Shown piece by piece: positions 8,677 through 52,209 of a stretch of 64,000 nucleotides of DNA. The notes beneath the pieces are model-generated. The model worked only from the letters and a program-made list of their open reading frames with translations. It made no database searches and was not told the origin of the DNA. The position numbers and the translations under genes were made by a program. Origin of the DNA: Janibacter terrae NBRC 107853 (lineage in GTDB: Bacteria > Actinomycetota > Actinomycetes > Actinomycetales > Dermatophilaceae). The stretch spans positions 1,054,001-1,118,000 of the forward strand of contig NZ_BCUV01000007.1 in NCBI RefSeq assembly GCF_001591405.1, in the 5' to 3' direction. Each line of letters begins with the position of its first letter. Within the stretch, counting starts at the first letter, position 1.

Positions 8677-9614
8677 GAGGGTCTCGCCTCTTCCGGGGGC
8701 ACGCCAGCGACGGTGAGGCCCTGCTCGTCCGCAGCCGTGCGCACCGCCTCGACGAAGAGGTCGATCGACGGGCGCGGCGTCGAGCTGGCCCGGTGCGCGA
8801 CCGAGACCGTGCGCAGGATCGTCTCCTCGAGCGGCACGACGTCGACGCCCGGCGGCAGCAGCGTCAGGCCGAGGTCGGAGACGAGGGAGACCCCGAGGCC
8901 GCCGGCGATCATCGCCAGGGCGGTGAACTGCTCCTCGACGGTGTGCACGATGCGCGGCTCGAAACCGTGCGCGTGGCACTCCACCCGGACCGCGCGGCCG
9001 AAGTGCGACCGGGGCCCCGAGAGGATCCACGGGTACTCGGCCAGCTCGGTGAGGGAGACGCTGTCGCCGGGCAGGACACCCTCGGGGACGGCTGCGTGCA
9101 GCCGCTCGACGGCGACGACCGACCGCTGGACCGCGGGGTCCCAGTCGACGGGGTGGCCCGAGTAGTCGATGACGAAGGACATGTCGAGCAGCCCGTCGCG
9201 CACCGCGTCGGCGGTCTCCTCCGGGACGAGCTCGGTGGTGCGCACCGCGATGCCGGGGTGCTCGAGCGCCAGCGCCGAGAGGGCCCGCGGCAGCAGGCCG
9301 GAGGCGACCGACGCCCACACGCCCACGGTGAGGCGCGCGGTGATGCCGGACTGGGCCTGCTCGATGGCCGCGGTCGCCCGCTCGACGGAGCCGAGGATCT
9401 CCTCGGCGTGCTCGGACAGGAGGAGGCCGAGCTCGGTGAGCTGCACCCGCCGACCGTGCTTCTCGATGAGCTTGACGCCCACCTCGCGCTCGAGCTGGGC
9501 GAGCTGCTGGGAGACGCCGGAGGGGCTGTAGTGCAGGGCCTGGGCGGCAGCGGTGATCGTGCCGCGCCGGTGCAGCTCGCGCAGCATCTGCAGTCGTCGC
9601 AGGGACAGCTCCAT
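8673..9614 (-). CDS. LysR family transcriptional regulator
   Basis: A 313-residue LysR protein. The winged helix-turn-helix is at residues 3-60 (LRRLQMLRELHRRGTITAAA, then YSPSGVSQQLAQLEREVGVKL), and a periplasmic-binding-protein-like effector domain follows (ITARLTVGVWASVASGLLP; TVEEQFTALAMIAGGLGVSLV). It is divergent from the amino-acid dehydrogenase at 9744, and a perfect 10-bp inverted repeat lies between them. It therefore probably controls that dehydrogenase and itself, with an amino acid or keto acid as effector. Confidence 0.9.
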   Translation of the reverse strand: MELSLRRLQMLRELHRRGTITAAAQALHYSPSGVSQQLAQLEREVGVKLIEKHGRRVQLTELGLLLSEHAEEILGSVERATAAIEQAQSGITARLTVGVWASVASGLLPRALSALALEHPGIAVRTTELVPEETADAVRDGLLDMSFVIDYSGHPVDWDPAVQRSVVAVERLHAAVPEGVLPGDSVSLTELAEYPWILSGPRSHFGRAVRVECHAHGFEPRIVHTVEEQFTALAMIAGGLGVSLVSDLGLTLLPPGVDVVPLEETILRTVSVAHRASSTPRPSIDLFVEAVRTAADEQGLTVAGVPPEEARPS

Positions 9615-9635
9615 CCGCCCACAGTAGGCGGCGCG

Positions 9636-9660
9636 GATCGTGCACAGAAGGTGCACGATC
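9636..9660. promoter_or_regulatory. Perfect inverted repeat, probable LysR operator
   Basis: GATCGTGCAC and GTGCACGATC flank a 5-bp spacer, 21 bp from the LysR start and 84 bp before the dehydrogenase start. The contained T-N11-A-like dyad is the form LysR proteins bind. A half-related GCGCACCTT follows at about 9664. Confidence 0.75.
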
Positions 9661-9743
9661 AGGCGCACCTTCCGTAACTGGACGTCAACGGCGTCACACG
9701 CTGACGCTGGGGCCATCGCTCCTGACGCAGAAGGTGGTTCCCC

Positions 9744-10946
9744 GTGACCCTCACCCACAGCACCGACCCGTCCCACGCCTTCGTCGACCACGCCGCGGCC
9801 CACGAGGTCACCTGGGTCGATCCGGTGACCGGGGCCCACGGGTACCTCGTCGTCCACACCCTCGTCTGCGGCATCGCGACGGGTGGCACCCGGATGCGTC
9901 CCGGCTGCACGCGGGACGAGGTCGCGGACCTGGCGCGCGGGATGGCGACCAAGACGGCCGCCTTCGGTCTGCCGGTCGGCGGGGCGAAGGGGGGCATCGA
10001 CTTCGACCCGAAGGACCCGCGGGCCTTCGGTGTCCTCTCGAGGTTCTTCGACGCGATGCGCCCGTGGCTCGACGGCCACTGGGTCACCGCGGAGGACCTC
10101 GGCGTGACCCAGCAGCTCATCGACGACGTCTTCGAGGAGATCGGCCTGTCGCAGTCCTTCCACGCGGCGATCACCCGCTCCCCGGACCCAGAGGCGACCC
10201 TCGAGCGGGTGCACGCGGGACTGGCGGTCATGACCGACGGGCTGCCGCTCGGCGACATCATCGGCGGCTACGGCGTGGCGCAGGCCTGCCTCGGCGTCGC
10301 CGAGGGGTTCGACTGGGCGGTGCCCGAGACCGAGGTCACGATCCAGGGCATCGGGACGATGGGTGGCGGCGCCGCGTGGTACCTGCACGAGGCGGGCGCC
10401 CGGGTCACGGCGATCGCCGACGCGCGCGGCACGCTCGTCGACCCCGCCGGGCTGGACATCCCGACGCTGCTCGACCTGCGCGACCAGTACGGGGAGATCG
10501 ACCGCTCGCGGGTGCCGTCCCACGTGCAGCAGCTCGACCGCGACGCGATCCTGCAGATCACCGCGGACGTCTTCGTGCCGGCGGCGGTCTCGTACGCGAT
10601 CCGTGAGGACAACGTCGAAGGGGTGGCCGCCCGCGTCGTCGTCGAGGCCGCCAACGCCGCGACCACCTGGGGGGCCGAGGACACGCTCACCGCGCGCGGC
10701 ATCCCGGTCGTGCCGGACTTCATCGCCAACACGGGGGCCGCGGCCTGGGCCTGGTGGCTGCTCCAGGGGCAGGTCGGGACCGATCCGCAGGACTCTTTCC
10801 GGCGGCTGTCGACCGAGATGCGCTCGAAGGTCGCGGTGCTCGCCCGGGCGTGGAGGCAGGAGGGCACGCCGATGCGCGACACCGCCTTCGCACTCGCCGC
10901 GACCAACCTGCGGCTGCTCGAGGGCGCCCAGATCGTCATCCCCTGA
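9744..10946 (+). CDS. Glu/Leu/Phe/Val dehydrogenase family protein
   Basis: A 400-residue NAD(P)-dependent amino-acid dehydrogenase that would interconvert an L-amino acid with its 2-oxo acid and ammonia. ATKTAAFGLPVGGAKGGIDFDP near residue 75 holds the catalytic lysine loop, AEDLGVT near 115 the conserved Asp, and VTIQGIGTMGGGAAWYLHEAG near 195 the Rossmann nucleotide site. The length is between leucine (about 360) and glutamate (about 450) dehydrogenases, so substrate is open. The start is a GTG at 9744. It is divergent from the LysR gene and ends just before a long palindrome. Confidence 0.88.
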   Translation: MTLTHSTDPSHAFVDHAAAHEVTWVDPVTGAHGYLVVHTLVCGIATGGTRMRPGCTRDEVADLARGMATKTAAFGLPVGGAKGGIDFDPKDPRAFGVLSRFFDAMRPWLDGHWVTAEDLGVTQQLIDDVFEEIGLSQSFHAAITRSPDPEATLERVHAGLAVMTDGLPLGDIIGGYGVAQACLGVAEGFDWAVPETEVTIQGIGTMGGGAAWYLHEAGARVTAIADARGTLVDPAGLDIPTLLDLRDQYGEIDRSRVPSHVQQLDRDAILQITADVFVPAAVSYAIREDNVEGVAARVVVEAANAATTWGAEDTLTARGIPVVPDFIANTGAAAWAWWLLQGQVGTDPQDSFRRLSTEMRSKVAVLARAWRQEGTPMRDTAFALAATNLRLLEGAQIVIP

Positions 10947-21763: not shown

Positions 21764-21805
21764 TACATAACTGGACGTTATGGGTTGCTGTGTGTCATCT
21801 TATGG

Positions 21806-21890
21806 CCAGGTCATGAGTCCCAGCGCGAAGCCCCGGCTTGCTGGGCGGCAACCCTCCACCCTCGGTGGGGTGCCCCGGGTGACGACCTGG
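21806..21890 (+). promoter_or_regulatory. SAM-IV riboswitch upstream of the OsmC-like gene
   Basis: The leader has GGTCATGAGT at 21809, CAGCG...GCCCCGGCTTGCTG, GGCAACCCTCC at about 21846, a GGTGGGGTGCC block near 21866 and GACGACC closing the first stem near 21887. This order matches the actinobacterial SAM-IV class, where GGCAACCC and the GGGGTGC pseudoknot strand build the S-adenosylmethionine pocket. It lies 64 bp before the OsmC-like ATG, implying that the gene is shut down when SAM is plentiful. Confidence 0.88.
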
Positions 21891-21953
21891 GCGTCGGCCG
21901 ACCGGCCGCGCCAAGCGCGGGTTCACGAGAGCCCCTGATCCACGGAGCCGTCC

Positions 21954-22418
21954 ATGACTGCCACCACCGCACCCACCACGCTGCTCGAGGTCACGACCCG
22001 GGGCGCGCTCGTCACGGGGACCGAGGTCGCCATCACGAGCCGCCAGTTCAGCTACACGATCGACGAGCCGCCGGCCCTCGGCGGCACCGACAAGGGCGCC
22101 AACCCGGTCGAGCACCTGCTGGCCGCCCTCGCCTCGTGCACCGTCATCAGCTACCAGGTCTGGGCCGACAAGCTCGGCCTCCGGGTCGACACGATCGACG
22201 TCGACCTGCGCGGCGACCTGGACCTCGCCGGGTTCCTCGGCACGGACGAGTCGGTGCGTCCGGGCTTCCAGGGCATCGAGCTGGCCATCACGGTCAGCGG
22301 CCCGGAGAGCGAAGGGGAGTACCGCCGCCTCGAGCAGGCCGTCGCCGAGCACTGCCCCGTCCTCGACAACCTCACGCACGGCGTGCCGGTGACGACGAGC
22401 CTCGAGGTCGCTGCCTGA
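21954..22418 (+). CDS. OsmC family protein under SAM-IV control
   Basis: A 154-residue OsmC/Ohr-fold protein. GANPVEHLLAALASCTVISYQVWADKLG near residue 45 carries the central helix with the family cysteine; the second conserved cysteine is in AVAEHCPVLDNLTHGVPV near 135. Classic members reduce organic hydroperoxides with paired cysteines. Control by a SAM-IV riboswitch instead links this one to sulfur metabolism, perhaps handling of reactive sulfur or sulfonate-derived species. A long shadow frame in +2 is not coding. Confidence 0.86.
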   Translation: MTATTAPTTLLEVTTRGALVTGTEVAITSRQFSYTIDEPPALGGTDKGANPVEHLLAALASCTVISYQVWADKLGLRVDTIDVDLRGDLDLAGFLGTDESVRPGFQGIELAITVSGPESEGEYRRLEQAVAEHCPVLDNLTHGVPVTTSLEVAA

Positions 22419-22425
22419 GCGCGGC

Positions 22426-24267
22426 CTAGCGCACGACCTGCCGCAGACTCCCGTCCACCCGCCGGGTCCACCCGCGGGCGTCGAGGTGCTCGAGCAGGGG
22501 CACGGCGACGCGCCGGGTGGTCCCGAGCGCCTGTCGCGCGAGGCTGAGGGTGAAGGGTTGCTCCAGCCCGGCGAGCACCCGCATCGCCCGCGCCGGCGCG
22601 TCGGGGAGCAGCACGACGTCGTCGGGCAGACGCATGATCCGTCCGAGGCGCTCGGCGGCCGCGAGCTCCGCGGTCCCGAGACCGAGCTCGGCGAGCTCAC
22701 CCCGCTCCGCCGCCACGAAGGGGGTGGCCCCCAGCCGTGCCTCGAGAGCCGCGATCCCGGCCTCCGCGGCTCCGAGGCCGCCAGCCTCCGGGTCGTGGAC
22801 GCGGCCGTCGGCGACGGCGAGGCCGGCGTCGGTGGCCAGTCCCGGCACCAGGGCCTGCCCGAGCACCGCAGGGAGGTGCTCGGGCAGGCCGAGCGACCTG
22901 GCCGCCTCGGCGACGGGCAGCCCGGCGCTGAGCGGGTCGGCGGCATGGTGCCGGCGGACGGCCTCGCCGAGCCGGTCGCGCCACGTGCTCACGGCCCCCG
23001 CGTCGACCCACCAGTCACCGTGCCGCACGGCACCCGCTGGCGCGGGGAGACCCAGCCGGTCGAGCACGTCCGCCCGCTCGGCTGCGCGCGAGCGCAGCCG
23101 AGCGGTGGCGAGGTCGGCGGGGTCCGCGCCTGCAGAGGCGAGGGCCTGCCCCCTTCGCCCTGGGGCACCGCGGCGGGTGAGCGGCAGGGGGTCGACGTCC
23201 ACGACGCGGACGGCCCACAGGCGACGACTCCCCGCGTCGCGCAGGATCGCCCGGTCGCCCACGCGCCACGGGAGGACGGTCGCGGCCGAGAGGCGGGCGT
23301 GGTCCGGCCCGAGCGGGCGCACGTGCACCTCGACGTCGACCGACCCGACGTGCAGCGTCCCCTGCTCGACCATCTGCATTGCCCTAGGGGAATGCGCGCT
23401 CCCGTGACCGTTCGTCTGCATTGCCCTAGGGGAATGCAGCTCGGTGGCGGACACGTCGACGACCGACGCGAGCGCGAAGGCGTCGGGCGTCAGCAGCGCG
23501 ACGGATCGGCCGACCTCGTCCACGCGGCGCAGGTTGACGGCGACCCGGGAGACCGGGCCGACGGCTTCGTGCGCCTCGTCCTGGCTGTGCAGGCCACGCA
23601 CCGTCACCTCGCGTGCGGACCCGCGGTCGAGCAGCACCAGCCGGTCGCCGACGTGGACCGTGCCCGCGCCGAGGGTGCCCGTGACGACCGTCCCCGCGCC
23701 GGAGACGGAGAAGCTGCGGTCGGACCAGAGCCGCACCGGCGCCCGGGCGTCCGGCTCGGGCAGCCGGGCAGCGAGCTCGTCGAGCGCCGCGCGAAGGGAG
23801 TCCATCCCGTCGCCCCGGACCGCCGAGACCTCGACGGCAGGGAGGTCGAGCCCGGCCTCGGCCAGGTGTCGCCGCGACTCGGTGAGCACGTCGGCTCGCT
23901 GCTCGTCGTCGGCCAGGTCGCACCGGGTGATGACGAGCAGGCCGTCGGTGATGGCGAGCGCCTGCACGGCGGCGAGGTGCTCGCTGCTCTGCGCCTGCCA
24001 GCCCTGGTCGGCGGCGACGACGAAGACCACCGCCGGCGCCGGCCCCAGCCCCGACAGCATCGTCCCGAGGAACCGCTGGTGCCCCGGCACGTCGACGAAG
24101 GCGACCTCGGCCCCGCTCGGCAGGGTCGTCCAGGCGTAACCGAGCTGGATGGTCAGCCCGCGCTCGCGCTCCTCGCGCAGCCGGTCGGGGTCACGCCCGG
24201 TGAGCGCGCGCACGAGCGTCGACTTGCCGTGGTCGACGTGCCCGGCGGTGGCGAGCACGCGCCTCAT
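22426..24267 (-). CDS. selB: Selenocysteine-specific elongation factor SelB
   Basis: A 613-residue GTPase that delivers Sec-tRNA(Sec) to UGA codons marked by a SECIS hairpin. G1 is TAGHVDHGKSTLVRALTG near residue 5, G2/G3 include RERGLTIQLGYAW and DVPGHQRF near 35-60, and NKxD is represented by TRCDL near 113. The C-terminal winged helices end at LEHLDARGWTRRVDGSLRQVV. Residues about 277-297 are two 14-residue repeats (HSPRAMQ...) translated from inserted hairpin DNA in the region after domain II. The ATG overlaps the selA stop (ATGA). Confidence 0.93.
   Translation of the reverse strand: MRRVLATAGHVDHGKSTLVRALTGRDPDRLREERERGLTIQLGYAWTTLPSGAEVAFVDVPGHQRFLGTMLSGLGPAPAVVFVVAADQGWQAQSSEHLAAVQALAITDGLLVITRCDLADDEQRADVLTESRRHLAEAGLDLPAVEVSAVRGDGMDSLRAALDELAARLPEPDARAPVRLWSDRSFSVSGAGTVVTGTLGAGTVHVGDRLVLLDRGSAREVTVRGLHSQDEAHEAVGPVSRVAVNLRRVDEVGRSVALLTPDAFALASVVDVSATELHSPRAMQTNGHGSAHSPRAMQMVEQGTLHVGSVDVEVHVRPLGPDHARLSAATVLPWRVGDRAILRDAGSRRLWAVRVVDVDPLPLTRRGAPGRRGQALASAGADPADLATARLRSRAAERADVLDRLGLPAPAGAVRHGDWWVDAGAVSTWRDRLGEAVRRHHAADPLSAGLPVAEAARSLGLPEHLPAVLGQALVPGLATDAGLAVADGRVHDPEAGGLGAAEAGIAALEARLGATPFVAAERGELAELGLGTAELAAAERLGRIMRLPDDVVLLPDAPARAMRVLAGLEQPFTLSLARQALGTTRRVAVPLLEHLDARGWTRRVDGSLRQVVR
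23376..23437. repeat. Hairpin repeat, family 2, two copies in frame inside selB
   Basis: GCATTGCCCTAGGGGAATGC occurs at 23376-23395 and 23418-23437, a 42-bp period that keeps the selB frame (14 residues). Between them lies GTGACCGTTCGTC, the same sequence found at the edge of the palindrome at 28280. Each 20-mer is itself an imperfect palindrome centred on CCTAGG. An inverted pair of the same 20-mer lies at 61580-61641. Confidence 0.88.
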
Positions 24268-25592
24268 GGGGTGGGCGTCCCCGGGTCGGGCCCGTCGTCG
24301 CCGAGCGCCGCCCGCAGTGCCGCTTCGACGTCACCGTCCCGATCGGCCGGGACGCAGCGCAGGTCGACCAGGCCGCGCCCCCCTTCGACCCGGGCGAGCA
24401 CGACCGGCTCGCCGACGCGCAGGCGCTCGACGGCGTCCGCGGGGATCTCGACGGCCCAGCCGGGCAGGGGCACGCCGGGCGCCCCGCCGCCGCCGACGCG
24501 GCCCTCGACCGCCACGACCCCACGACCGAGGGCGGCGGCGAGGGCCTCGACCCGCGGCCGCAGCTCGTCGGCGCTCACGTGCAGCGCGGCAGTGACCGGT
24601 GGGACCGGGCCGCGCAGGGTCGCCTCGAGTGCGGCGAGGGTCAGCTTGTCGACGCGCAGGGCGCGCTGGAAGGGGTGGCGACGCAACCGCTCGACGACCT
24701 CGGCGTCGCCGAGGACGAGACCCGCCTGCGGGCCGCCGAGGAGCTTGTCGCCGCTGGCGGTGACGATCGTGGCGCCCGCGCGCAGCCACGTCGTGGCATC
24801 CGGCTCGTCGGGCAGCAACGGGTCGGGCCGCAGCAGGCCGGACCCGATGTCGGCGACGACCGGCACGGGGGAGCCGTCGGGCCGACGCAGCCCGCGGAGC
24901 TCACCGAGGCCCACCTCGGCCGTGAACCCGTCGACGCGGAAGTTGCTCGGGTGCACCTTGAGCACGCACCCGGTGCCCGGACCGATCGCGTCGGCGTAGT
25001 CCCTCAGGTGCGTCCGGTTCGTCGTGCCGACCTCGCGCAGCCGAGCGCCGGTCGAGGCGATGAGGTCGGGCAGGCGGAACCCGTCGCCGATCTCGACCAT
25101 CTCCCCGCGCGAGACGACGACCTCGCGCCCGGCGGCGAGCGCGGTCGTGGCGAGCACGAGCGCGGCCGCGCCGTTGTTGACGACCAGCGCGCCGGTCGCG
25201 TCGGGGACGGCGTCGAGCAGGGTGGCGAGTGCCCCGGCGCCGCGTCGGCTCCTCGCTCCCGTGGCCAGGTCCATCTCGACGTCGACGTAGCCGGCGGCGG
25301 CGACGACGGCCTCGATCGCGCTGGGGGACAAGGGGGCCCGGCCGATGTTGGTGTGCACCACGACGCCGGTCGCGTTGAGGACCGCGGTGAGCGAGCTGGC
25401 CCGGGTCGGGAGCCCGGCGAGTGCGGTGGCAGGGACCTCGTCGGGGCCGATGCTCCCGTCGCGCGCCTGCTGCTGGGCGGCGGTGATCGCGACCCGGACG
25501 ACATCCCGCCCGAGTCGCTCCGCCGCGGCGACGAAGGGCGCCGAGGCCAGCAGCGTGTCGGTGCGCGGGATGGCCCGCCGGGGGTCGGTCAC
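24264..25592 (-). CDS. selA: L-seryl-tRNA(Sec) selenium transferase SelA
   Basis: A 442-residue PLP enzyme that converts Ser-tRNA(Sec) to Sec-tRNA(Sec) using selenophosphate. LNATGVVVHTNIGRAPLSPSA near residue 88 and TASGDKLLGGPQAGLVLGD near 280, which holds the PLP lysine, are diagnostic. The length is slightly under the E. coli enzyme. It starts at a GTG 24 bp downstream of tRNA-Sec on the same strand, so tRNA, selA and selB are probably one transcript. Confidence 0.95.
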   Translation of the reverse strand: MTDPRRAIPRTDTLLASAPFVAAAERLGRDVVRVAITAAQQQARDGSIGPDEVPATALAGLPTRASSLTAVLNATGVVVHTNIGRAPLSPSAIEAVVAAAGYVDVEMDLATGARSRRGAGALATLLDAVPDATGALVVNNGAAALVLATTALAAGREVVVSRGEMVEIGDGFRLPDLIASTGARLREVGTTNRTHLRDYADAIGPGTGCVLKVHPSNFRVDGFTAEVGLGELRGLRRPDGSPVPVVADIGSGLLRPDPLLPDEPDATTWLRAGATIVTASGDKLLGGPQAGLVLGDAEVVERLRRHPFQRALRVDKLTLAALEATLRGPVPPVTAALHVSADELRPRVEALAAALGRGVVAVEGRVGGGGAPGVPLPGWAVEIPADAVERLRVGEPVVLARVEGGRGLVDLRCVPADRDGDVEAALRAALGDDGPDPGTPTP

Positions 25593-25616
25593 CGTGCTCC
25601 CTTCGGGTCGGACGTG

Positions 25617-25712
25617 TGGCGGAGGCGGACGGGAATCGAACCCGCCAGACCGAGATGCTCGGCCTCACCGGTGTTGAAGACCGGGGGGACCACCAGGAAC
25701 CCAGACGCCTCC
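25617..25712 (-). tRNA. selC: tRNA-Sec, anticodon UCA
   Basis: A 96-nt tRNA with acceptor arms GGAGGCG and CGCCTCC, discriminator G and an encoded CCA (25617-25619). The anticodon loop CTTCAAC contains TCA, which reads UGA. The very long variable arm (GAGGCCGAGCATCTCGGTCT region) and the T arm GGTTCGATT are typical of selenocysteine tRNA. It lies just upstream of selA on the same strand. Confidence 0.95.
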
Positions 25713-25776
25713 GCCGCCCACCCTAGGACAGGTCGTCCCCCGAGACACCGGAGCGTCCTTCTCCTACGGTGACGAC

Positions 25777-26841
25777 GTGAGCACCGCACCGTCTCCCGGC
25801 CGGCCGCGACACCTCGACCGCTGGGTCCTCGGGGTCGCGATCACCGCCCTGGTCTTCGTCGTCGGTCTCGTCTGGGCCAAGTGGTGGCCCTACGCGCTGA
25901 AGATCGACGGCCTCGTCGGCAGCCGGGCGTGGGACGGGGGTGCGCTCGTCGACGTCGCGCGTGACGCGCCGACGTGGTGGCAGGGGGCCTGGGACTTCAC
26001 GCTCGCGTACAGCCTGGCCGTCTGGAAGGCGCTGCTCGTCGGCCTGCTCGTCGCCGCGGCCATCGACGCGCTCCTGCCCCGGGAGCACCTGCGCCGGGTC
26101 CTCGCCGGCCGCGGCTCCACCTCCGGCGCGGCCATCGCGGGCGCTGCCTCGCTGCCGAGCATGATGTGCACCTGCTGCGCCTCGCCGGTGGCGGTCTCGC
26201 TGCGTCGCAGCGGGGTGCCGCTCCCGTCGGTCGTCGCCTACTGGCTAGGCAACCCGGTCCTCAACCCGGCCGTCCTCGTCTTCCTCGCGCTCGTCGGGCC
26301 GTGGGAGTGGGCCGCGACCCGGCTCGTCGTCGGGGTCGGGCTGGTCCTGGGGGCGGCGGCGCTCGCCGCCCGCCTCGCCCAGGGACGAAGGGTGGACCCC
26401 ACCGTCGCGGACATCGCACCGGAGACCGTGGACGAGGACGGGCCCTCGCTGGGGCGGTTCGTCCGCTCGCTCGTGCGGTTCACGCTCACCCTCGTGCCGG
26501 AGTACCTCGTCGTCGTCGCGCTCGTGGGCGCGGCCGCGCACGTCTTCAGCTTCGAGGCGGCGTGGGTGACCGGCGGGGGGTTCGCCCTGGTGGCCGTTGC
26601 TGCCGTCGTGGTCCTCCTCGTCATCCCGACCGGTGGCGAGATCCCGGTGCTCCTCGCCCTGGCCGCCGTCGGTGCCAGCCCGTGGGTGCTGGGGCTCGTC
26701 CTCATCGCGCTGCCGGCCGTGAGCCTCCCGTCCCTGGTCATGGTGGGCCGCGCCCTCACCTGGCGGGTCACGGCGGTCACCGCGGGTGTCGTCACCGCCG
26801 CCGGCCTCGCGGCGGGCGCGGCGCTCGTCGTCCTCGGCTGA
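25777..26841 (+). CDS. COG0701-type permease in the sel locus
   Basis: A 354-residue membrane protein with about eight to ten helices, of the permease family that includes ArsP-like exporters. Two homologous halves each end in a conserved turn: SLPSMMCTCCASPVAVSLRR near residue 127 and VLLVIPTGGEIPVLLALA near 285. The first has a CTCC cluster near membrane helices, suited to a soft or chalcogen ligand. It begins 64 bp from tRNA-Sec, divergent, and runs toward selD 44 bp downstream. I infer a selenium or thiol-reactive oxyanion transporter; no substrate has been shown. Confidence 0.82.
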   Translation: MSTAPSPGRPRHLDRWVLGVAITALVFVVGLVWAKWWPYALKIDGLVGSRAWDGGALVDVARDAPTWWQGAWDFTLAYSLAVWKALLVGLLVAAAIDALLPREHLRRVLAGRGSTSGAAIAGAASLPSMMCTCCASPVAVSLRRSGVPLPSVVAYWLGNPVLNPAVLVFLALVGPWEWAATRLVVGVGLVLGAAALAARLAQGRRVDPTVADIAPETVDEDGPSLGRFVRSLVRFTLTLVPEYLVVVALVGAAAHVFSFEAAWVTGGGFALVAVAAVVVLLVIPTGGEIPVLLALAAVGASPWVLGLVLIALPAVSLPSLVMVGRALTWRVTAVTAGVVTAAGLAAGAALVVLG

Positions 26842-26885
26842 GCCCCTGCCGCCCCTCGGTGGGGCCGGCGTCCTAGGGTGAGGCC

Positions 26886-27887
26886 ATGGAGCCGGTCCGA
26901 CTGACCCAGTTCGCCCGCGGCGGAGGGTGCGCCTGCAAGATCCCCGCCGGAGAGCTCGAGCAGATCGTCGCCGGGCTGCACGTCGCGGCGCCCCCCGGCG
27001 CGGACGTCCTCGTCGGCCTCGACGACGGCGACGACGCGGCGGCCGTGCGCATCGAGGGCGGCCGGGCGGTGCTCTCGACCGCGGACTTCTTCACGCCCGT
27101 CGTCGACGACCCCTACGACTGGGGCCGGATCGCCGCCGCCAACGCCGTCTCCGACGTCTACGCGATGGGCGGCGACCCGGTGATGGCGATCAACCTCGTC
27201 GCCTGGCCGCGTGAGCTGCTCCCGACCGACCTCCTGCGGGAGGTCCTGCGGGGTGGTCTCGACGTCGCGACCGAGGCGGGCTTCCCGGTCCTCGGCGGCC
27301 ACAGCATCGACGCCCCCGAGCCGATCTACGGCATGGCCGTCACCGGGACCGCCGACCCCCAGCGGCTGATGCGCAACGACGCCGCCGAGCCCGGCCTGCC
27401 GATAAGCCTCACCAAGCCGCTCGGTGTCGGCGTGCTCAACAACCGGCACAAGGCGACCGGCGAGCGCAGCGAGGAGGCGATCGCCTCGATGGTCGCCCTC
27501 AACCGCGACGCCTCCCGCGCCGCGCTGGCGGCCGGGGTGCGGGCGGCGACCGATGTCACCGGCTTCGGCCTGCTCGGTCACCTGTACAAGATGTGTCGGG
27601 CCTCGTCGGTGGCCGCGCGGATCGATGCCGCGGCCGTCCCCTACGTCACAGGCGCGCGCGAGGCGCTCGCGGCGGGCCACGTACCCGGCGGCTCCAAGCG
27701 CAACCTCGACTGGGTCCGCCCGCACCTGTCCGCCGACGGCACCAGCGAGGACGAGCTCATCCTGCTCGCCGACGCGCAGACCTCCGGGGGCCTGCTCGTC
27801 GTCGGCGAGGTGCCGGGTGCGCCGGTCGTCGGCGAGACCGTCGCCGCGGGCACGCTCGGGCACGGGGTCCTCGTGCAGGTGGCGTGA
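26886..27887 (+). CDS. selD: Selenide, water dikinase SelD
   Basis: A 333-residue enzyme making selenophosphate from selenide and ATP. The N-terminal TQFARGGGCACKIPAGELEQI near residue 7 holds the catalytic Cys and Lys (a cysteine, not selenocysteine, at the first position). STADFFTPVVDDPYDWGRIAAANAVSDVYAMGG near 63 is the ATP/Mg site, and TDVTGFGLLGHL near 222 is conserved. The stop overlaps the rhodanese start. It is the last core gene needed for Sec synthesis in this locus. Confidence 0.95.
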   Translation: MEPVRLTQFARGGGCACKIPAGELEQIVAGLHVAAPPGADVLVGLDDGDDAAAVRIEGGRAVLSTADFFTPVVDDPYDWGRIAAANAVSDVYAMGGDPVMAINLVAWPRELLPTDLLREVLRGGLDVATEAGFPVLGGHSIDAPEPIYGMAVTGTADPQRLMRNDAAEPGLPISLTKPLGVGVLNNRHKATGERSEEAIASMVALNRDASRAALAAGVRAATDVTGFGLLGHLYKMCRASSVAARIDAAAVPYVTGAREALAAGHVPGGSKRNLDWVRPHLSADGTSEDELILLADAQTSGGLLVVGEVPGAPVVGETVAAGTLGHGVLVQVA

Positions 27888-45187: not shown

Positions 45188-45199
45188 GTCGCGGGGGAG

Positions 45200-46024
45200 T
45201 CAGCCACCGCCGGGCTCGACCTGCCGCGGCGCCACGAACCGCGCGCGGGGCGGACGGGCGTCGGCAAGGTGACGCCCCATCGCGGTCTCGGCGGCCACAG
45301 GGTCGCCCGCGACGACGGCCGCCCGGACGAGGTCCAGGTGCACCAAGAGCTTCTCGCCGTCGAGGCCCAGAGGGGCGATGTCGCGGTCCTGGAAGGCGAT
45401 GATCGAGCCGCTCGCGAAGGCGACGAGCAGGGGGTTGTTGCTGCACTCCGCCAACCGTCGGTGGAAGTGCATGTCGTACCGCACCGCATCCTCCAGGCCG
45501 ACCCCCCGGTCCGCCGGAGACAGCCCGAGCTGCTCGTCCAGTGCCAGCAGGTCGTCCAGCTGGGTGTCTGTCCGGCGTTGCGCGGCCAGCCGCGCCGACA
45601 ACGGCTCCAGCTCGTCGCGGACCTCTGAGATCTGGTCGTAGGTCAGCTCCGCCCCGTCGAGCGCCAGGCTCATCCGACCGCTCAACCCGTCCGCGATGAC
45701 GGCGGGGTCGATGTCCTCGACGATGTGCCCTCCCTTCGGCCCCCGGACCACCCGGATGGCCCCCTTGACGCGCAGCGCTCGCAGCGCCAGGCGCATCGTC
45801 GGTCGGCTCACTCCGTGGTTCTCGGCCATGACGTCCTCGGAGGGCAACCGGTCACCGGGGCGCAACGAGCCGTCGAGGATGGACTCCGTCAGCAACGTCG
45901 AGATCTGCTGGACCGCGCTCAGCACCTTGCGGTTGAGTCGAGGGTCGAGTGGGCGGACCTCGACGGGAGTCGAATTGCCTTGGGGCGCAGGGGGGCTCGG
46001 GTCCTCGCCAGTTCCGCGCATCAT
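45200..46024 (-). CDS. GntR family regulator, FCD subfamily, for the Rieske operon
   Basis: A 274-residue regulator. A 30-residue leader precedes the winged HTH (ILDGSLRPGDRLPSEDVMAENHGVSRPTMRLALRALRVKGAI) at about 48-92; the FCD domain follows (EVRDELEPLSARLA, VRYDMHFHRRLAECSNNPL). The LPSEDVMAENHGVSRPT HTH is close to FadR-type. It is divergent from the dioxygenase operon at 46211, so it probably responds to that operon's aromatic amine or acid product. It is unlike the GntR at 11015 in sequence and operator. Confidence 0.88.
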   Translation of the reverse strand: MMRGTGEDPSPPAPQGNSTPVEVRPLDPRLNRKVLSAVQQISTLLTESILDGSLRPGDRLPSEDVMAENHGVSRPTMRLALRALRVKGAIRVVRGPKGGHIVEDIDPAVIADGLSGRMSLALDGAELTYDQISEVRDELEPLSARLAAQRRTDTQLDDLLALDEQLGLSPADRGVGLEDAVRYDMHFHRRLAECSNNPLLVAFASGSIIAFQDRDIAPLGLDGEKLLVHLDLVRAAVVAGDPVAAETAMGRHLADARPPRARFVAPRQVEPGGG

Positions 46025-46183
46025 CGCGCAGCCACCTCTCGCTCACCAGACGACTCTCTTCAGGCTACCCGGTGCCGGCCGGCAGGCACCCGACCGTTCC
46101 GCTCCCGATACGCCAAGTTTTCTTCGTTTACGCCAGCCCGGACGTGGGACACCGTCATAGGCCTACCGGCCGTGACGACCCCT

Positions 46184-46201
46184 CGGTCGTCTGCCTGACA
46201 A
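46184..46201. promoter_or_regulatory. Inverted repeat before the dioxygenase operon
   Basis: GACGACC-CCTC-GGTCGTC, perfect 7-bp arms, ends 9 bp before the ATG at 46211. It may be the operator of the divergent GntR regulator, but no second copy is present to test it. Confidence 0.4.
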
Positions 46202-46210
46202 GGAGCCTGC

Positions 46211-47512
46211 ATGACCGTCACGCGTGAGACCTCGACGAGGTCCTGGTCCAACCTGGTCAAGCCCGACCGGGTCCATCGGGACCTGTACACCGACCCCACC
46301 GTCTTCGCCCGGGAGATGGCGGTGATCTTCGGGCAGACCTGGGTCTACCTCGCCCACGAGAGCCAGCTCCCCGAGCCCAACTCGTTCTTCCGCGCGAAGC
46401 TCGGCCTCCGCCCGCTCCTCATCACGCGCGACCGCAAGGGCGAGATCCGGGCACTGTTCAACAGGTGCTCCCACCGCGCCGCGACCGTCTGCCGCGAGGA
46501 CTCGGGCATCGCCAAGCAGTTCCAGTGCCCGTACCACGGCTGGACCTTCCGCAACACCGGCGAGCTGGTCGGGGTGCCCTGGCCCGGGGGCTATGGAGAG
46601 GACTTCGACAAGTCCGAGCTCGGTCTCACGGCGGTCCCGCGCGTCGAGTCCTACCGCGGCTTCATCTTCGGCACCCTCTCGATGGACGCGCCGTCGCTGA
46701 CCGAGCACCTCGCCGGCGCGACCGAATGGCTCGACTACTGGATCGACCGTGCGCCCACCGGCCAGGTCCAGCTGCGCAGCGCCGCCCACCGGATGGCCTA
46801 CCGCGGCAACTGGAAGCTGGCCTTCGACAACGCCGGCGACGGGTACCACCCTGCGTTCTCGCACCGCTCGCTGCTCGACATGGCCGGTCGCCTCGGTGAC
46901 AGCAAGGACATGGCCTACTTCGGCAAGAGCCCCGACGAGGGGACGATGACGGTCCGTCAGCTCGGCAACGGGCACAGCGTCATCGACCAGCGCACCAACT
47001 TCGCTGCCCCCGGCGACATCTGGCGCAACCAGCGTCCCCAGCCGGGCCGCGAGTGGATCGAGGAGACCCTGCGGGAGCGGTACCCCGACGAGGCCGACCA
47101 GTACCTCGACCTGTGCTCGGGCTCGATGATCAACCTCAGCATCTTCCCCAACCTGCTGATCATCGGCAACCAGGTGCAGGTCGTCGAACCGCTGGCGATC
47201 GACCAGACCGAGCTCGTCTGGTGGGCCAGCACCGTCGAGGGTGTCCCGGAGCTGGTCAACACCATGCGCATGCGCACCCAGGAGGACTTCCCCGCCTTCG
47301 GTGAGCCGGACGACCAGGCCAACTTCGAGGAGGCCCAGATCGGCCTGGGGATCGGCGAGGTCGAGTGGATCCTCATGAACCGCGGGCTCGGTGTCGATGG
47401 TTGGGACGGTACCGACGAGCACGGTCGCCGACTCAGCCCCGTGACCGACGAGCTGCACATGCGGGGGTACTACGCCGAGTGGACCCGCCTCATGGAAGGA
47501 GCCGGCCGATGA
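46211..47512 (+). CDS. Aromatic-ring-hydroxylating dioxygenase large subunit (Rieske)
   Basis: A 433-residue Rieske oxygenase alpha subunit. The [2Fe-2S] ligands are in FNRCSHRAATVCREDSGIAK...CPYHGW near residues 82-107 (CxH...CxxH). The mononuclear iron site is in AFDNAGDGYHPAFSHRSLLD near 204-222. It would dihydroxylate an aromatic ring with O2. First gene of the operon; start ATG with AAGGAG upstream. Its downstream partners (GS-like and amidotransferase-like) make an aromatic amine the likely substrate; a benzoate-type substrate is an alternative. Confidence 0.92.
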   Translation: MTVTRETSTRSWSNLVKPDRVHRDLYTDPTVFAREMAVIFGQTWVYLAHESQLPEPNSFFRAKLGLRPLLITRDRKGEIRALFNRCSHRAATVCREDSGIAKQFQCPYHGWTFRNTGELVGVPWPGGYGEDFDKSELGLTAVPRVESYRGFIFGTLSMDAPSLTEHLAGATEWLDYWIDRAPTGQVQLRSAAHRMAYRGNWKLAFDNAGDGYHPAFSHRSLLDMAGRLGDSKDMAYFGKSPDEGTMTVRQLGNGHSVIDQRTNFAAPGDIWRNQRPQPGREWIEETLRERYPDEADQYLDLCSGSMINLSIFPNLLIIGNQVQVVEPLAIDQTELVWWASTVEGVPELVNTMRMRTQEDFPAFGEPDDQANFEEAQIGLGIGEVEWILMNRGLGVDGWDGTDEHGRRLSPVTDELHMRGYYAEWTRLMEGAGR

Positions 47513-48099
47513 CCGCCACCGACTACTCGGACACCTCCCGCTGGTCGTACCACGTCGACGAGGTCTGGTACGAGCGGCTCACCGGGTTCGTCGCCACCCT
47601 CGGCGAGGACTGGCCGATCGCCGACCCGACGACGACCGCGGAAGCGGCGGCCTACCTGCACCGGGAGGCGCGGTACGTCGACGAGGGCCGGTTCAACGAG
47701 TGGATCGACCTCTTCTCGGACGACTGCCTCTACTGGGTGCCGATCACCGCCGGTTCCGGCGACCCGCGTCGCGAGGTCAGCCACGCCTTCGACGACCGCC
47801 GCCGGCTCACCGACCGGGTGCACTGGCTGCGCACCGGCTTGGCCTACTGCCAGATCCCGCGATCGCGCACCCGTCGTCTGATCACCAACGTCGAGGTCCT
47901 CGACGACACCACCAGCGGGCTGCGGTTCATCCGCTCCAACGTCCTGGTCACCGAGTTCCGCGCCGGCGTCACCAAGCTCTACTCCGGATGGTGCGGCCAC
48001 GTGCTGCGGCCGAAGGGGGAGGGCTGGGAGATCGTGCTCAAGCAGACCAACCTGCTCGACTCCGAGCACGGCCACGAGAACCTCACGTTGGTGCTGTGA
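47509..48099 (+). CDS. Aromatic-ring-hydroxylating dioxygenase small subunit
   Basis: A 196-residue beta subunit with the NTF2-like fold: EAAAYLHREARYVDEGRFNEWIDLFSDDCLYWVP near residue 40 is the family block, and TRRLITNVEVLDDTTSGLRFIRSNVLVTE near 122 follows. It has a structural role, building the alpha3beta3 oxygenase. It is coupled to the large subunit by ATGA. Confidence 0.9.
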   Translation: MTATDYSDTSRWSYHVDEVWYERLTGFVATLGEDWPIADPTTTAEAAAYLHREARYVDEGRFNEWIDLFSDDCLYWVPITAGSGDPRREVSHAFDDRRRLTDRVHWLRTGLAYCQIPRSRTRRLITNVEVLDDTTSGLRFIRSNVLVTEFRAGVTKLYSGWCGHVLRPKGEGWEIVLKQTNLLDSEHGHENLTLVL

Positions 48100-48395
48100 T
48101 GTCCGACGAGCTGCAGGACGCCATCGCACAGCTGCGGTCGGAGACGGAACGTCTGCGCCACCGGTGCGCCGCGCTCGAAGCCGTCGTCGAGCGCCAGGGA
48201 CGGCGCCTCGTCGCGCTCGACGAGCTCGCCGTCCAGGTCCGGGCGATGCACTTCTGGGACCACTCGGTCTACGAGGTCGTCCCCGACGAGAGCTTCGTGG
48301 CGGTCGACCGGGACGAGGCCGTCGGGCTGCTCGGCGCCCTCGCCGAGGTCGACCACTGGCGCCCCTGGCACACCACGGTGGAGCACACCCGGTGA
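48099..48395 (+). CDS. Unknown 98-residue protein inside the dioxygenase operon
   Basis: I do not recognise this protein. Residues 1-40 form a heptad-like coiled coil (ELQDAIAQLRSETERLRHRC, then ALEAVVERQGRRLVAL). The remainder is acidic and aromatic (MHFWDHSVYEVVPDESFVAV; VDHWRPWHTTVEH), with four Trp/His-rich positions. The start overlaps the small-subunit stop (TGATG), and its stop overlaps the next start (GTGA), so it is an obligate member of the operon. It may be an assembly, oligomerisation or regulatory factor; I see no counterpart in the classic tdn/atd/dca gene sets. Confidence 0.78.
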   Translation: MSDELQDAIAQLRSETERLRHRCAALEAVVERQGRRLVALDELAVQVRAMHFWDHSVYEVVPDESFVAVDRDEAVGLLGALAEVDHWRPWHTTVEHTR

Positions 48396-49084
48396 CCGAC
48401 GAGACGATCATCATCAGCCACATCGACACCCCCGACGTCGCGTGGATCATCGAGGAGCTCGACGCTCGCGGGATGCCGCACCGGATCGTGCACACCTTCG
48501 GCGGCGAGACCCTGCCCGACGACCCGCAGCGGGTCGTCGTCCTGGGCGGGCCGACCAGCGTGTACGACGAGCTGGACGATCCTCCCTTCGTCGCAGAGAT
48601 GGAGTGGATCCGCGCCGCGATCGACGCGGGCGCCCCCACCCTCGGCATCTGCCTCGGGTCGCAGATCCTGGCGCACGTGCTCGGCGGGGCGGCGGTGCCG
48701 GGCACGCAGGGTTTGGAGTACGGGCAGACGCAGGTGCGCCGCACCGACGTCGAGCACCCCCTGTCCGATGCCATGGACGGGACCTTCTTCTCGTTCCACA
48801 GCGACACCTTCGAGCCTCCGCCGGGGGTCGACATCCTCGCCACCAGCGACCGTTACCCGCAGGCGTGGTCCCTCGGGAGCGCGCTGGCGGTGCAGTTCCA
48901 TCCCGAGATCTCCCCGGACGGCATCCGGGACCTGATCGCCCGGGAGGGCCCCAAGCTGCGCGCGGCGGGGCTCGACGTCGACGCCATGCTCGCCGACGCA
49001 GAGGCCGCCGCCCCGACCTCCCGCGCCGCGGCGGCCGCCCTCATCGGCGGCTGGCTGGACCTCCCCCCTTCGACCCACCGGTAG
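48392..49084 (+). CDS. Class I glutamine amidotransferase-like protein (TdnT/AtdA2-like)
   Basis: A 230-residue GATase domain. The nucleophile elbow is LGICLGSQILAHVLGG near residue 86 with catalytic Cys, and AVQFHPEISPDGI near 165 supplies His-Glu. In aniline pathways the equivalent (TdnT/AtdA2) is thought to hydrolyse gamma-glutamyl conjugates, controlling glutamylanilide levels. It starts at a GTG coupled to the 98-residue gene. A GMP-synthase-like role is possible from fold alone, but the operon argues otherwise. Confidence 0.87.
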   Translation: MTDETIIISHIDTPDVAWIIEELDARGMPHRIVHTFGGETLPDDPQRVVVLGGPTSVYDELDDPPFVAEMEWIRAAIDAGAPTLGICLGSQILAHVLGGAAVPGTQGLEYGQTQVRRTDVEHPLSDAMDGTFFSFHSDTFEPPPGVDILATSDRYPQAWSLGSALAVQFHPEISPDGIRDLIAREGPKLRAAGLDVDAMLADAEAAAPTSRAAAAALIGGWLDLPPSTHR

Positions 49085-49137
49085 CCGGCCCACCTGCGGC
49101 CGGACGGCGACCCATCTCCCCACGAAAGAAGACCCAC

Positions 49138-50628
49138 ATGAGTGCAACCAGCAACTTCATCGAGCGGCACGGCATCTACTCGGAGGAGCAGCGCGCCGCG
49201 GCGAGCGAGCTCCTCGCGCGGATCGACGAGCTCGGTCTCGACGCGATCCGGATGACCTGGCCCGACCAGCACGGTCAGCTGCGCGGCAAGAGCATGTCTC
49301 GCGACGGTTTCGAGAGCGCACTCAAGGGTGGCATCGAGATCACCATGGCGCCGTACTTCTTCGACACGGCCAACGGGATCGTGTTCAACCCGTTCTCGCC
49401 CGACGGTGGCTTCGGCATCCCCGAGCTGGCGGGTTCACCCAATGTCGTCATGGTCCCCGACATCCCGACCTTCCGGGTCCTGCCGTGGGCCGAGGGCACC
49501 GGCTGGGTGATGTGCGACCTGTACTCCCGCCACGGGTCCCCGTTCCCGTTCTCGCCGCGCTCGATCCTCAAGCGCACCCTCGCGGACCTCAAGAGCGAGG
49601 GGTACGACCTCGTCACCGGTCTGGAGATCGAGTGGTACCTCACCCGGCTGCTCGACGACAACGTGGTGAACGGTTCGCTCGGAGCACCCGGCATCGCCGC
49701 CGACGCCCCGATCGTCGCGCCGGTCGCCCGCGGGTACAGCTACCTGCTCGACGACCACCTCGACGAGATCGACGAGCAGCTGCGCCCGATCCGTCGCGCG
49801 GTCCAGGCGCTCGGGCTGCCGCTGCGCTCCACCGACGACGAGTGGGCACCCAGCCAGGTGGAGTCGACATTCGACGTGCTGCCCGGTCTGGAGGCGGCCG
49901 ACTCGGTGACCCTCTTCCGGATGGCGGTCAAGCAGGTCGCCAAGCGCAACGGGCACCTGGCGTCGTTCATGTGCACCCCGGCGATCGCGGGCTTCTACGC
50001 CAGCGGGTGGCACCTGCACACCTCGCTCAACGATGTCACCGGCGCCAACGCCTTCGTCCCGGGGGAGGGCCAGGAACTCTCGGACGTCGGCATGCACTAC
50101 ATCGGCGGGACCCTCGCGCACGCGCAGGCGGCCTCGGTCTTCACCACGCCGACCGTCAACGGCTACCGTCGTCGCCGTCCGTACTCCCTGGCCCCCGACC
50201 GGCTCACCTGGGGCAACGACAACCGGGCCGCCCTCATGCGGGTCATCTCCAACCCCGGCGACCCGAGCTCTCACGTGGAGAACCGCGTCGGGGAGCCGAG
50301 CGCGAACCCGTACCTCTACATCGCCTCGCAGGTTGCCGCCGGCCTCGACGGCATCCGCCGCAAGACCGCCCCGGGCGCCGCGAGCATCGACCCCTACGCG
50401 GCCGACGTGCCGCAGCTGCCGCAGTCGCTCGGCAGCGCGATCGACGCCCTCGAGAGCGACTCCTTCTTCCGGGAGGCCTTCGGCAGCAGCTTCATCGACT
50501 ACCTGGTGACGATGAAGCGCTTCGAGGTGGGGCGGTACGAGGAGTGGGTCGCGAGCAACCCCGACCGGGAGGCCGACGTCAACGGCGTGACCGACTGGGA
50601 GCACCGCGAGTACTTCGAGAAGTTCTGA
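49138..50628 (+). CDS. Glutamine-synthetase-family ligase (gamma-glutamylanilide synthase-like)
   Basis: A 496-residue GS-fold enzyme. MTWPDQHGQLRGKSMSRDGF near residue 41 is the beta-grasp start; YDLVTGLEIEWYLTRLLDD near 160 the Glu cluster; GWHLHTSLND near 286 the ATP/Glu site; and ENRVGEPSANPYLYIASQ near 381 the distal site. It would glutamylate an amine with ATP. In tdnQ/atdA1 this makes gamma-glutamylanilide as the dioxygenase substrate. 53 bp separate it from the amidotransferase, with CGAAAGAAG upstream. The amine specificity is inferred from context. Confidence 0.87.
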   Translation: MSATSNFIERHGIYSEEQRAAASELLARIDELGLDAIRMTWPDQHGQLRGKSMSRDGFESALKGGIEITMAPYFFDTANGIVFNPFSPDGGFGIPELAGSPNVVMVPDIPTFRVLPWAEGTGWVMCDLYSRHGSPFPFSPRSILKRTLADLKSEGYDLVTGLEIEWYLTRLLDDNVVNGSLGAPGIAADAPIVAPVARGYSYLLDDHLDEIDEQLRPIRRAVQALGLPLRSTDDEWAPSQVESTFDVLPGLEAADSVTLFRMAVKQVAKRNGHLASFMCTPAIAGFYASGWHLHTSLNDVTGANAFVPGEGQELSDVGMHYIGGTLAHAQAASVFTTPTVNGYRRRRPYSLAPDRLTWGNDNRAALMRVISNPGDPSSHVENRVGEPSANPYLYIASQVAAGLDGIRRKTAPGAASIDPYAADVPQLPQSLGSAIDALESDSFFREAFGSSFIDYLVTMKRFEVGRYEEWVASNPDREADVNGVTDWEHREYFEKF

Positions 50629-50652
50629 CCCGCACAACCAAGGAGAACGATC

Positions 50653-50976
50653 ATGATCACCGTCCGGCTCACGTCCCCCTCGGGCGAGCTCCACGAGGTC
50701 GTCGGCAGGCCCGGCAGCTCCCTCATGGAGACGGCCGTCAAGCACGGGGTGCCCGGCATCGTCGCGGAGTGCGGCGGAGCCTGCTCCTGCGCGACCTGCC
50801 ACGTCTACGTCGACGAGGAGTTCGCGACGCAGGTCGGCGGAGCGGACGACTGGGAGGACGAGATGCTCGAGGAGGCCGTCGCCCCGCGGCGGCCGACGAG
50901 CCGCCTGTCCTGCCAGATCAAGTTGAGCGAAGAGCTCGAGGGACTGTCGGTCACGATCGCGCCGGAGCAGGAATGA
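50653..50976 (+). CDS. [2Fe-2S] ferredoxin, adrenodoxin/putidaredoxin type
   Basis: A 107-residue ferredoxin with the Cx5Cx2C...C set: AECGGACSCATCHVYV near residue 38 and a last Cys in RLSCQIKLSEEL near 86. It carries electrons from the reductase encoded next to the Rieske cluster. Start ATG with AAGGAG. Its stop overlaps the reductase ATG (ATGA). Aniline dioxygenases of Proteobacteria use one fused reductase instead, so this two-protein chain is a difference. Confidence 0.92.
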   Translation: MITVRLTSPSGELHEVVGRPGSSLMETAVKHGVPGIVAECGGACSCATCHVYVDEEFATQVGGADDWEDEMLEEAVAPRRPTSRLSCQIKLSEELEGLSVTIAPEQE

Positions 50977-52193
50977 GCGCCGGCGTCGTCATCATCGGCG
51001 GGGGCCAGGCGGGCGCCCAGGTCGCGCAGTCACTGCGCGAAGGGGGCTACCCCGACCCGGTCGTCATCGTCGGCGAGGAGGCGATCTCCCCGTACCAGCG
51101 CCCGCCGCTGTCGAAGGCCTACCTCGCCGGCGAGGCGGACCGGGAGAGCCTGGTCCTGCGGGACGACTCGTACTACGAGGCGCAGGACATCACGGTCATC
51201 ACCGGTGACCGGGTCGAGACGCTCACCCTCGACCCGGGCGAAGGGGGCCGCGCCACGACGGCCAGTGGCGCGGACCTCCCCTTCGCCCACCTGGTGCTGG
51301 CGACCGGCGCAGCGCCCCGGTCGCTCACCCTGCCCGGGTTCACCGGTGACGCGGTCCACGTCCTGCGGGACCTCGAGGACGCCGACCGGCTCGCCGAGGG
51401 CCTGGCGAGCGCGCAGCGGGTCGTCGTGGTCGGTGGCGGGTTCATCGGGCTGGAGGCGGCCGCCGTCGCTCGAGCCCGTGGGTGTGCGGTCACCGTGCTC
51501 GAGGCGGCGCCGCGGCTGCTCGGGCGGGCTGCACCACCGGAGATCTCGACGTTCGTGCAGCAGCACCATCAGGCTCGCGGGATCGAGTTCCATCTCGACG
51601 CGCGGATCGCCGGGCTGCGGCAGGCCGACGGCGGGCTCGAGGTGGTGCTCGAGGACGGCGCGAGCCTGCCGGCGGACCTCGTCGTCGTGGGTGTCGGTGC
51701 TGCCCCGCGGACCGAGCTCGCCGAGGCGATCGGCGCCGAGGTCGACCAGGGAATCGTCGTCGACGAGTTCGCCCGGACCACCCTGCCGGGTGTGTACGCC
51801 GCGGGCGACTGCACCAACGGCGGGCACGTCGAGTTCGTCGGTCGGATGGAGTCGGTCCAGAACGCCATCGACCAGGCCAAGACGGTCGCCGCGTCCATCC
51901 TCGGGCAGCAGCAGCCGTACGCGACCGTGCCGTTCTTCTGGTCGGACCAGGCCGATCTGCACCTGCAGATGGCCGGGATCGTCGGTCCGGGTGACGACTG
52001 TGTCGTGCGCGAGGGCGCTGATGACCTGGCGGTCCTCGCCTTCCGTGAGGACGGGAGCTTCCGCGGGGTCGCCACGGTCAACCGGCCTCGCGACTTCATG
52101 GTCGGGCGGCGGGCCCTGCACCACGGGCAGCAGCTCGACCGGACCCGGCTCGCCGACCCTGAGGTGTCGATGCGGGACCTGCTCCTGGGGTGA
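50973..52193 (+). CDS. NAD(P)H-ferredoxin reductase, FAD-dependent
   Basis: A 406-residue reductase of the putidaredoxin-reductase type. FAD site GVVIIGGGQAGAQVAQSLRE near residue 4, NAD site RVVVVGGGFIGLEAAAVARARG near 147, and TTLPGVYAAGDCTN near 268 are the diagnostic GxGxxG and ATG/GD motifs. The C-terminal HYDE-like FFWSDQADLHLQMAGI near 315 fits the family. It feeds electrons through the ferredoxin to the oxygenase and ends the operon. Confidence 0.92.
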   Translation: MSAGVVIIGGGQAGAQVAQSLREGGYPDPVVIVGEEAISPYQRPPLSKAYLAGEADRESLVLRDDSYYEAQDITVITGDRVETLTLDPGEGGRATTASGADLPFAHLVLATGAAPRSLTLPGFTGDAVHVLRDLEDADRLAEGLASAQRVVVVGGGFIGLEAAAVARARGCAVTVLEAAPRLLGRAAPPEISTFVQQHHQARGIEFHLDARIAGLRQADGGLEVVLEDGASLPADLVVVGVGAAPRTELAEAIGAEVDQGIVVDEFARTTLPGVYAAGDCTNGGHVEFVGRMESVQNAIDQAKTVAASILGQQQPYATVPFFWSDQADLHLQMAGIVGPGDDCVVREGADDLAVLAFREDGSFRGVATVNRPRDFMVGRRALHHGQQLDRTRLADPEVSMRDLLLG

Positions 52194-52209
52194 GGCCGTG
52201 CCGGCCCGC

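Follow-up and report, generated by a model that had tools for sequence, protein, structure and literature searches.

What does a cluster of seven genes, in which a Rieske oxygenase is joined to a glutamine synthetase (GS)-like enzyme, do in Janibacter terrae NBRC 107853, how did it reach the chromosome, and where does its product go? The cluster is found in a stretch of 64,000 nucleotides (contig NZ_BCUV01000007.1, positions 1,054,001–1,118,000), here termed the window and numbered from its first letter. Its seven plus-strand genes overlap or are closely spaced, span 46211–52193, and have intact reading frames throughout. We think it probable that they are an operon for an aniline-type dioxygenase of the actinobacterial kind, which sits on the chromosome and was gained horizontally; its product is probably routed to a catechol 2,3-dioxygenase. 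An earlier note on this DNA had described genes for a two-subunit Rieske oxygenase (A1, A2) and for amidotransferase-like (T) and GS-like (Q) proteins, in the order A1-A2-orf-T-Q with a separate ferredoxin (Fd) and FAD reductase (Red), and had considered them an aromatic-amine degradation cluster. All these genes are present at the coordinates it gave, and in that order.

Identity of the cluster

A sequence search of the PDB with Q gives 8wwu at E 4.5e-174, the next match being at 3.2e-50, and the score of Q for the NCBIfam GlnA model is 219.5, below the cut-off of 429. Entry 8WWU is NpaA1 with adenylyl imidodiphosphate (AMPPNP) (PMC11335346). An alignment of ten sequences shows Q to be 53% identical to NpaA1 from Pseudomonas sp. 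JS3066, 59% to the protein of Delftia plasmid pNB8c, and 63–68% to seven actinobacterial proteins. NpaA1 residues F75, F86 and W235 are at the bottleneck of the amine tunnel and are required for aniline activity (PMC11335346); all three are kept in Q, as F75, F86 and W236. NpaA1 E234 is retained as well, and E232 is replaced by Asp. The other proteins have clear domain matches (Pfam best E-value at or below 1.5e-9 for each except orf98), and an alignment of five proteins shows that T retains the Cys and His-Glu motifs, GICLGSQ and QFHPE.

Phylogeny of the oxygenase large subunit, which the earlier note had named as a check, places A1 away from benzoate dioxygenases, and thus not in the benzoate clade that the note had said would refute its reading. 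In a maximum-likelihood tree of 48 large subunits, A1 lies within an actinobacterial clade of 21 rows (99/99), which is nested in an aniline-type clade of 36 rows (99/98) that also holds the Delftia and JS3066 oxygenases (TdnA1/NpaA3 type). Outside the latter clade are three BenA proteins above the TIGR03229 cut-off, indole-acetate-type plasmid proteins, and four paralogues from the same genome; the tree program warns about long branches among the outer rows. The tree leaves out L011 (same cluster as L010), L026, L027 and L038 (no full A1), L033–L036 (near-identical to the Delftia plasmid locus L089 where tested), and L039–L085 (GS below 50%, with another or no oxygenase).

It is exceedingly improbable that A1 belongs to an ordinary benzoate or anthranilate dioxygenase that has a glutamine synthetase nearby by chance. 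BenA and AntA are indeed its top NCBIfam models, but the scores are far under the curated cut-offs (230.9 vs 780.95 bits for TIGR03229, BenA, and 209.9 vs 671.9 bits for TIGR03228, AntA), and the BenA proteins found with TIGR03229 lie outside the aniline clade. The tree is without a true AntA; none was found among the 148 genomes searched, and no control genome matched either.

The view that this is an aniline-type (arylamine) dioxygenase cluster, as the earlier note held, is well supported by the likeness of Q to NpaA1, its tunnel aromatics and the position of A1. Judged by these homologues, the cluster very probably turns aniline-like compounds into catechol.

Table. Features of the inserted block (window positions)
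Feature	Position	Strand	Basis and remarks
Inserted block, regulator plus seven genes	45188-52208	.	Between the ABC (ATP-binding cassette) transporter ATPase gene and the fatty-acid-hydroxylase gene
GntR/FCD regulator	45200-46024	-	Divergent from A1; PF00392, PF07729
A1, Rieske oxygenase large subunit, aniline-type	46211-47512	+	PF00355 (Rieske), PF00848 (Ring_hydroxyl_A); tree; alignment with Delftia and JS3066 proteins
A2, oxygenase small subunit	47509-48099	+	PF00866 (Ring_hydroxyl_B), E 2.2e-27
orf98, small conserved protein, N-terminal helix and conserved C-terminal motif	48099-48395	+	23-sequence alignment, predicted structure
T, class-I glutamine-amidotransferase-like	48392-49084	+	PF00117 (GATase)
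Q, GS-like, predicted gamma-glutamyl-arylamide synthase	49138-50628	+	Gln-synt_C; best PDB sequence match 8wwu
Fd, [2Fe-2S] ferredoxin, Fer2 and not Rieske type	50653-50976	+	PF00111, E 1.5e-9; four Cys in translation
Red, FAD ferredoxin reductase with Reductase_C	50973-52193	+	PF07992 (Pyr_redox_2), PF14759

Gene order, electron chain and insertion

That the gene order and electron chain, which the earlier note described as altered, are unusual is not borne out by comparison with relatives. A search with Q, from which 80 of 207 loci were retained, yielded 23 actinobacterial genome loci of at least 62% identity (L006–L027 and L038). The order A1-A2-orf-T-Q is found in 20 of these, and Fd and Red also follow Q in 16 of the 23. 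The three exceptions are L026 (Q alone in the sequence examined), L027 (rearranged, with a 34% orf match) and L038 (contig starts inside Q). Plasmids of Corynebacterium occultum, Dietzia kunjamensis and Rhodococcus gordoniae (L086, L087 and L088, respectively) carry all seven genes in the same order. Proteobacterial loci, on the other hand, read Q-T-A1-A2-reductase-LysR.

The electron chain here consists of a Fer2 ferredoxin and a Reductase_C FAD reductase, vs a single ferredoxin-NADP reductase on the Delftia plasmid. This pairing of ferredoxin and reductase forms a class of its own in the usual schemes of Rieske oxygenases. The nearest NCBIfam models to Red are HcaD and AndAa, both under cut-off. 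The chain is not constant among relatives: in L010, L011, L021 and L023 no Red was located behind Q, and any match to a ferredoxin is short. Locus L124, from actinobacterial genome G445, has A1-A2-Q at 61%, 48% and 62%, and no T, orf, Fd or Red was detected within 20 kb.

By these comparisons, the Janibacter layout is that of the actinobacterial form of the aniline cluster, a Rhodococcus cad-like subtype, because the order is shared by 20 of 23 genome loci and three plasmids, and because the cluster of Rhodococcus sp. DH-2 lists the same enzymes, ferredoxin and reductase included (PMC11596033). It is a further example of a pathway form previously described in Rhodococcus. The Gram-positive form of the aniline pathway can thus be looked at as a mobile module, widespread among actinobacteria and fixed in its gene order, and not as a local rearrangement.

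Two additional arrangements were seen among the loci. A second amidotransferase or gamma-glutamyl hydrolase gene follows Red at L086:10545-11273 and L088:15172-15885, and also in L006 and L007. Nostoc sp. UHCC 0926, a cyanobacterium associated with lichens, carries an A2-A1-Q set on a plasmid (L091:7143-10800), with an A1 58% identical to that of Janibacter.

The fatty-acid-hydroxylase gene beside the block is present in all 16 genomes of the genus. None of the cluster genes was found in any of the 12 congener regions compared. The ABC ATPase and hydroxylase genes are 56–163 bp apart without the block in five of these regions and 1.0–1.5 kb apart in two; another gene is between them in one, and the ABC genes are absent there in four. 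DNA similarity to L159 and L163 stops after the ATPase stop codon and returns at the end of the hydroxylase gene. The Q gene was found in none of the 15 congeners searched, which leaves this genome as one of 16, and at E 1e-100 or below it is found in two of 186 family genomes, that of Janibacter itself and G141. Third-position guanine plus cytosine is 0.895–0.959 for the block genes and 0.956–0.977 for five flanking genes. No mobile-element genes were seen at the block edges. The regulator and the seven genes are a chromosomal insertion of ~7 kb that, from its distribution and boundaries, appears to have been gained recently and horizontally.

The divergent GntR/FCD regulator, part of the same inserted block, was not mentioned in the earlier note. 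A regulator 49–51% identical to it stands upstream of A1 in L008, L017 and L019, and inverted repeats are noted ahead of A1. Scanning the block for promoters and terminators turned up one promoter-like site and two terminator-like ones, all within genes and near the levels in shuffled sequence, and these were set aside.

Probable fate of the product

The earlier note found no ring-cleavage genes adjacent to the cluster. Within the reach of the tests made, this is correct: when the whole genome was searched with PF00775, TIGR03211 and PF02900, no match fell inside the window, and four LigB-type matches are elsewhere in the genome. The only PF00775 matches in the genome are PcaH and PcaG, and no catechol 1,2-dioxygenase was found. 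With a draft assembly in 11 contigs, whose completeness is rated at 99.99%, the case for absence of intradiol catechol cleavage from this genome is strong but not final.

The suggestion that the product may feed another locus is supported in part. One genome match to TIGR03211 (catechol 2,3-dioxygenase) is above cut-off (C7:867024-867947; 340.6 vs 320.2). It shares the contig of the cluster, at a distance of ~230 kb, and the cut-off was reached in none of 14 control genomes. Near it are phenol-hydroxylase subunits, as well as an aldolase and an acetaldehyde dehydrogenase above their cut-offs. A candidate outlet is present, and the routing to it is probable.

Named homologues suggest how the pathway might proceed. 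Using ATP, Q would couple an aromatic amine to glutamate; the amine would be aniline itself or one of its simple substituted forms. Electrons would pass from NADH via Red and Fd to A1A2, which would dioxygenate the gamma-glutamyl arylamide, and the product would then fall apart to a catechol; T would hydrolyse excess gamma-glutamyl arylamide. In JS3066, NpaA1, A3, A4 and A5 are enough for conversion (PMC11335346). The enzyme most likely to cleave the catechol is the catechol 2,3-dioxygenase encoded in the phenol-hydroxylase/meta-cleavage set, which is the likely outlet because the genome shows no catechol 1,2-dioxygenase. The GntR protein probably controls the operon. In Janibacter, the pathway has been set into the chromosome without a ring-cleavage gene of its own, apparently relying on the resident meta-cleavage set.

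Several observations weigh against this proposal. Three enzymes of the meta set, a hydratase, a semialdehyde dehydrogenase and a tautomerase, score under their NCBIfam cut-offs, and the set probably serves phenol. Meta-routing would be unusual: catA accompanies 10 of the 25 actinobacterial loci examined, so it is not a constant feature, and no relative of the Janibacter catechol 2,3-dioxygenase accompanies any of them. In favour of the proposal, such a relative is near the tdn genes in three proteobacterial loci (L033–L035). The A1 branch, at 0.52, is the longest in the 21-row clade (the next is 0.27), and Q residue 81 is Ile, vs Met in NpaA1 and Trp in AtdA1 (PMC11335346); because of these two features the substrate may differ.

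The same machinery might then act on another amine, i.e. an aminobenzoate, yielding protocatechuate for PcaHG, or naphthylamine, or an alkyl- or chloroaniline, with a product that bypasses catechol 2,3-dioxygenase. NpaA1 does accept a broad range of amines (PMC11335346), and position 81 of Q is unlike both NpaA1 and AtdA1. In addition, PcaH and PcaG score above cut-off on contig C10, with pcaB, pcaC and pcaF homologues alongside, and would be an alternative outlet if the product were protocatechuate. Nevertheless, we consider another amine unlikely. Q position 201 is Tyr, as given for the aniline enzyme AtdA1, and Val in NpaA1 (PMC11335346); A1 groups with loci having catA beside the cluster; and a carboxylated amine must fit a pocket described as hydrophobic (PMC11335346).

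There is a slight chance that the cluster has ceased to support growth, and is either retained for aromatic-amine detoxification or decaying. The block is without a ring-cleavage gene, unlike 10 of the 25 actinobacterial loci tested, it is present in one of 16 genomes of the genus, and in some loci of Pseudonocardia neither Fd nor Red is seen next to Q. However, the seven frames are intact with catalytic motifs retained, and the genome also has a set of genes for cleaving catechol.

Contig C10 (132 kb; L096–L100, L129, L130) has three more Rieske oxygenase large subunits and a pca gene set. It also has a frame of 420 amino acids that occurs twice (L096:4749-6011 and 8576-9838) and resembles an insertion element; the contig is perhaps a plasmid.

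The orf98 protein and comparison with known systems

The small reading frame between A2 and T, orf98, is taken as real because it is conserved in 23 sequences (Janibacter, 19 genome loci and three plasmid loci; L011 was left out as identical to L010). The C-terminal half contains all 14 residues that are invariant in the alignment, and orf98 follows A2 in every locus where both are found. At E 0.001 the Janibacter protein has no match among Pfam or NCBIfam families. A Pfam scan of the 23 members for a known family gave scattered weak matches, bZIP_2 in four of the 23 (best 1.6e-4) and one CATRA-C (6.6e-4), and this assignment was rejected. The best match in a PDB profile search is a designed coiled coil (E 0.0019), and the matches shown cover the helix. 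Structure prediction gives one long helix at residues 3–48, with a predicted template modelling (pTM) score of 0.47 and a mean predicted local distance difference test (pLDDT) score of 77, which falls below 50 at the poorly defined C-terminal end.

The orf98 profile is found in two of 394 class genomes, that of Janibacter and G376, both with the cluster. Q at E 1e-120 is found in nine of 394; the identity is at least 62% in three of the nine, among which G445 is without orf98. Among 72,556 plasmid records orf98 occurs in three, each time within such a cluster. It was seen here with such clusters only. It is not an invariable companion of Q: L124 has A1-A2-Q without a detectable orf, and in L026 and L038 Q is alone in the sequence examined, which for L038 starts inside Q. 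The accessible portions of PMC11596033, PMC4539516 and PMC11335346 make no mention of an orf98-like protein, and a literature search limited to open-licence papers found no published account.

We tentatively suggest, as a possibility well short of an even chance, that orf98 may be a dedicated and previously undescribed component of actinobacterial arylamine dioxygenases. It would be a coiled coil with a conserved WD(F/H)xxY...(V/L)A(V/L)DR...ALAxxDHWxPW end that docks on the oxygenase and either delivers the gamma-glutamyl arylamide, which is toxic, from Q to A1A2 or aids electron uptake from the non-Rieske ferredoxin. If activity depends on orf98, attempts to express actinobacterial aniline dioxygenases heterologously would fail where it is left out.

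Elsewhere in the window, selenocysteine genes are found at 21795-27884, where tRNA-Sec (25617-25712, minus strand) is surrounded by SelA, a SelB-like protein just under cut-off, and SelD.

Amongst described systems, the aniline cluster of Rhodococcus sp. DH-2 consists of cadA1, A2, B1, B2, Q, T and catA, and has been described as resembling that of Rhodococcus sp. AN-22 (PMC11596033). DH-2 and Janibacter share both oxygenase subunits, a [2Fe-2S] ferredoxin, a separate reductase, and GS-like and glutamine-amidotransferase-like proteins. The DH-2 cluster includes catA, whereas that of Janibacter does not, and the accessible DH-2 text names no small orf, in contrast to the Janibacter cluster with orf98 (PMC11596033). 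The three actinobacterial plasmids have A1-A2-orf-T-Q-Fd-Red as in Janibacter, with an IS3-family transposase gene between orf and T in L088. They differ in being plasmid-borne, in having catA beside all three clusters, and in having a different or no GntR regulator at that place.

Delftia plasmid pNB8c (L089), of the proteobacterial tdn/atd type, has orthologous Q (59%), T, A1 and A2, but in the order Q-T-A1-A2, with a single ferredoxin-NADP reductase, a LysR regulator, and no orf98 found there; the order in the Janibacter cluster departs from this one, as the earlier note had held. The npa cluster of Pseudomonas sp. JS3066 encodes the GS-like NpaA1 (structure 8wwu), which has the same tunnel aromatics as Q (PMC11335346). 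It differs in its order, Q-T-A1-A2-reductase, in its single reductase NpaA5, and in its substrate, the two-ring amine 1-naphthylamine (PMC11335346).

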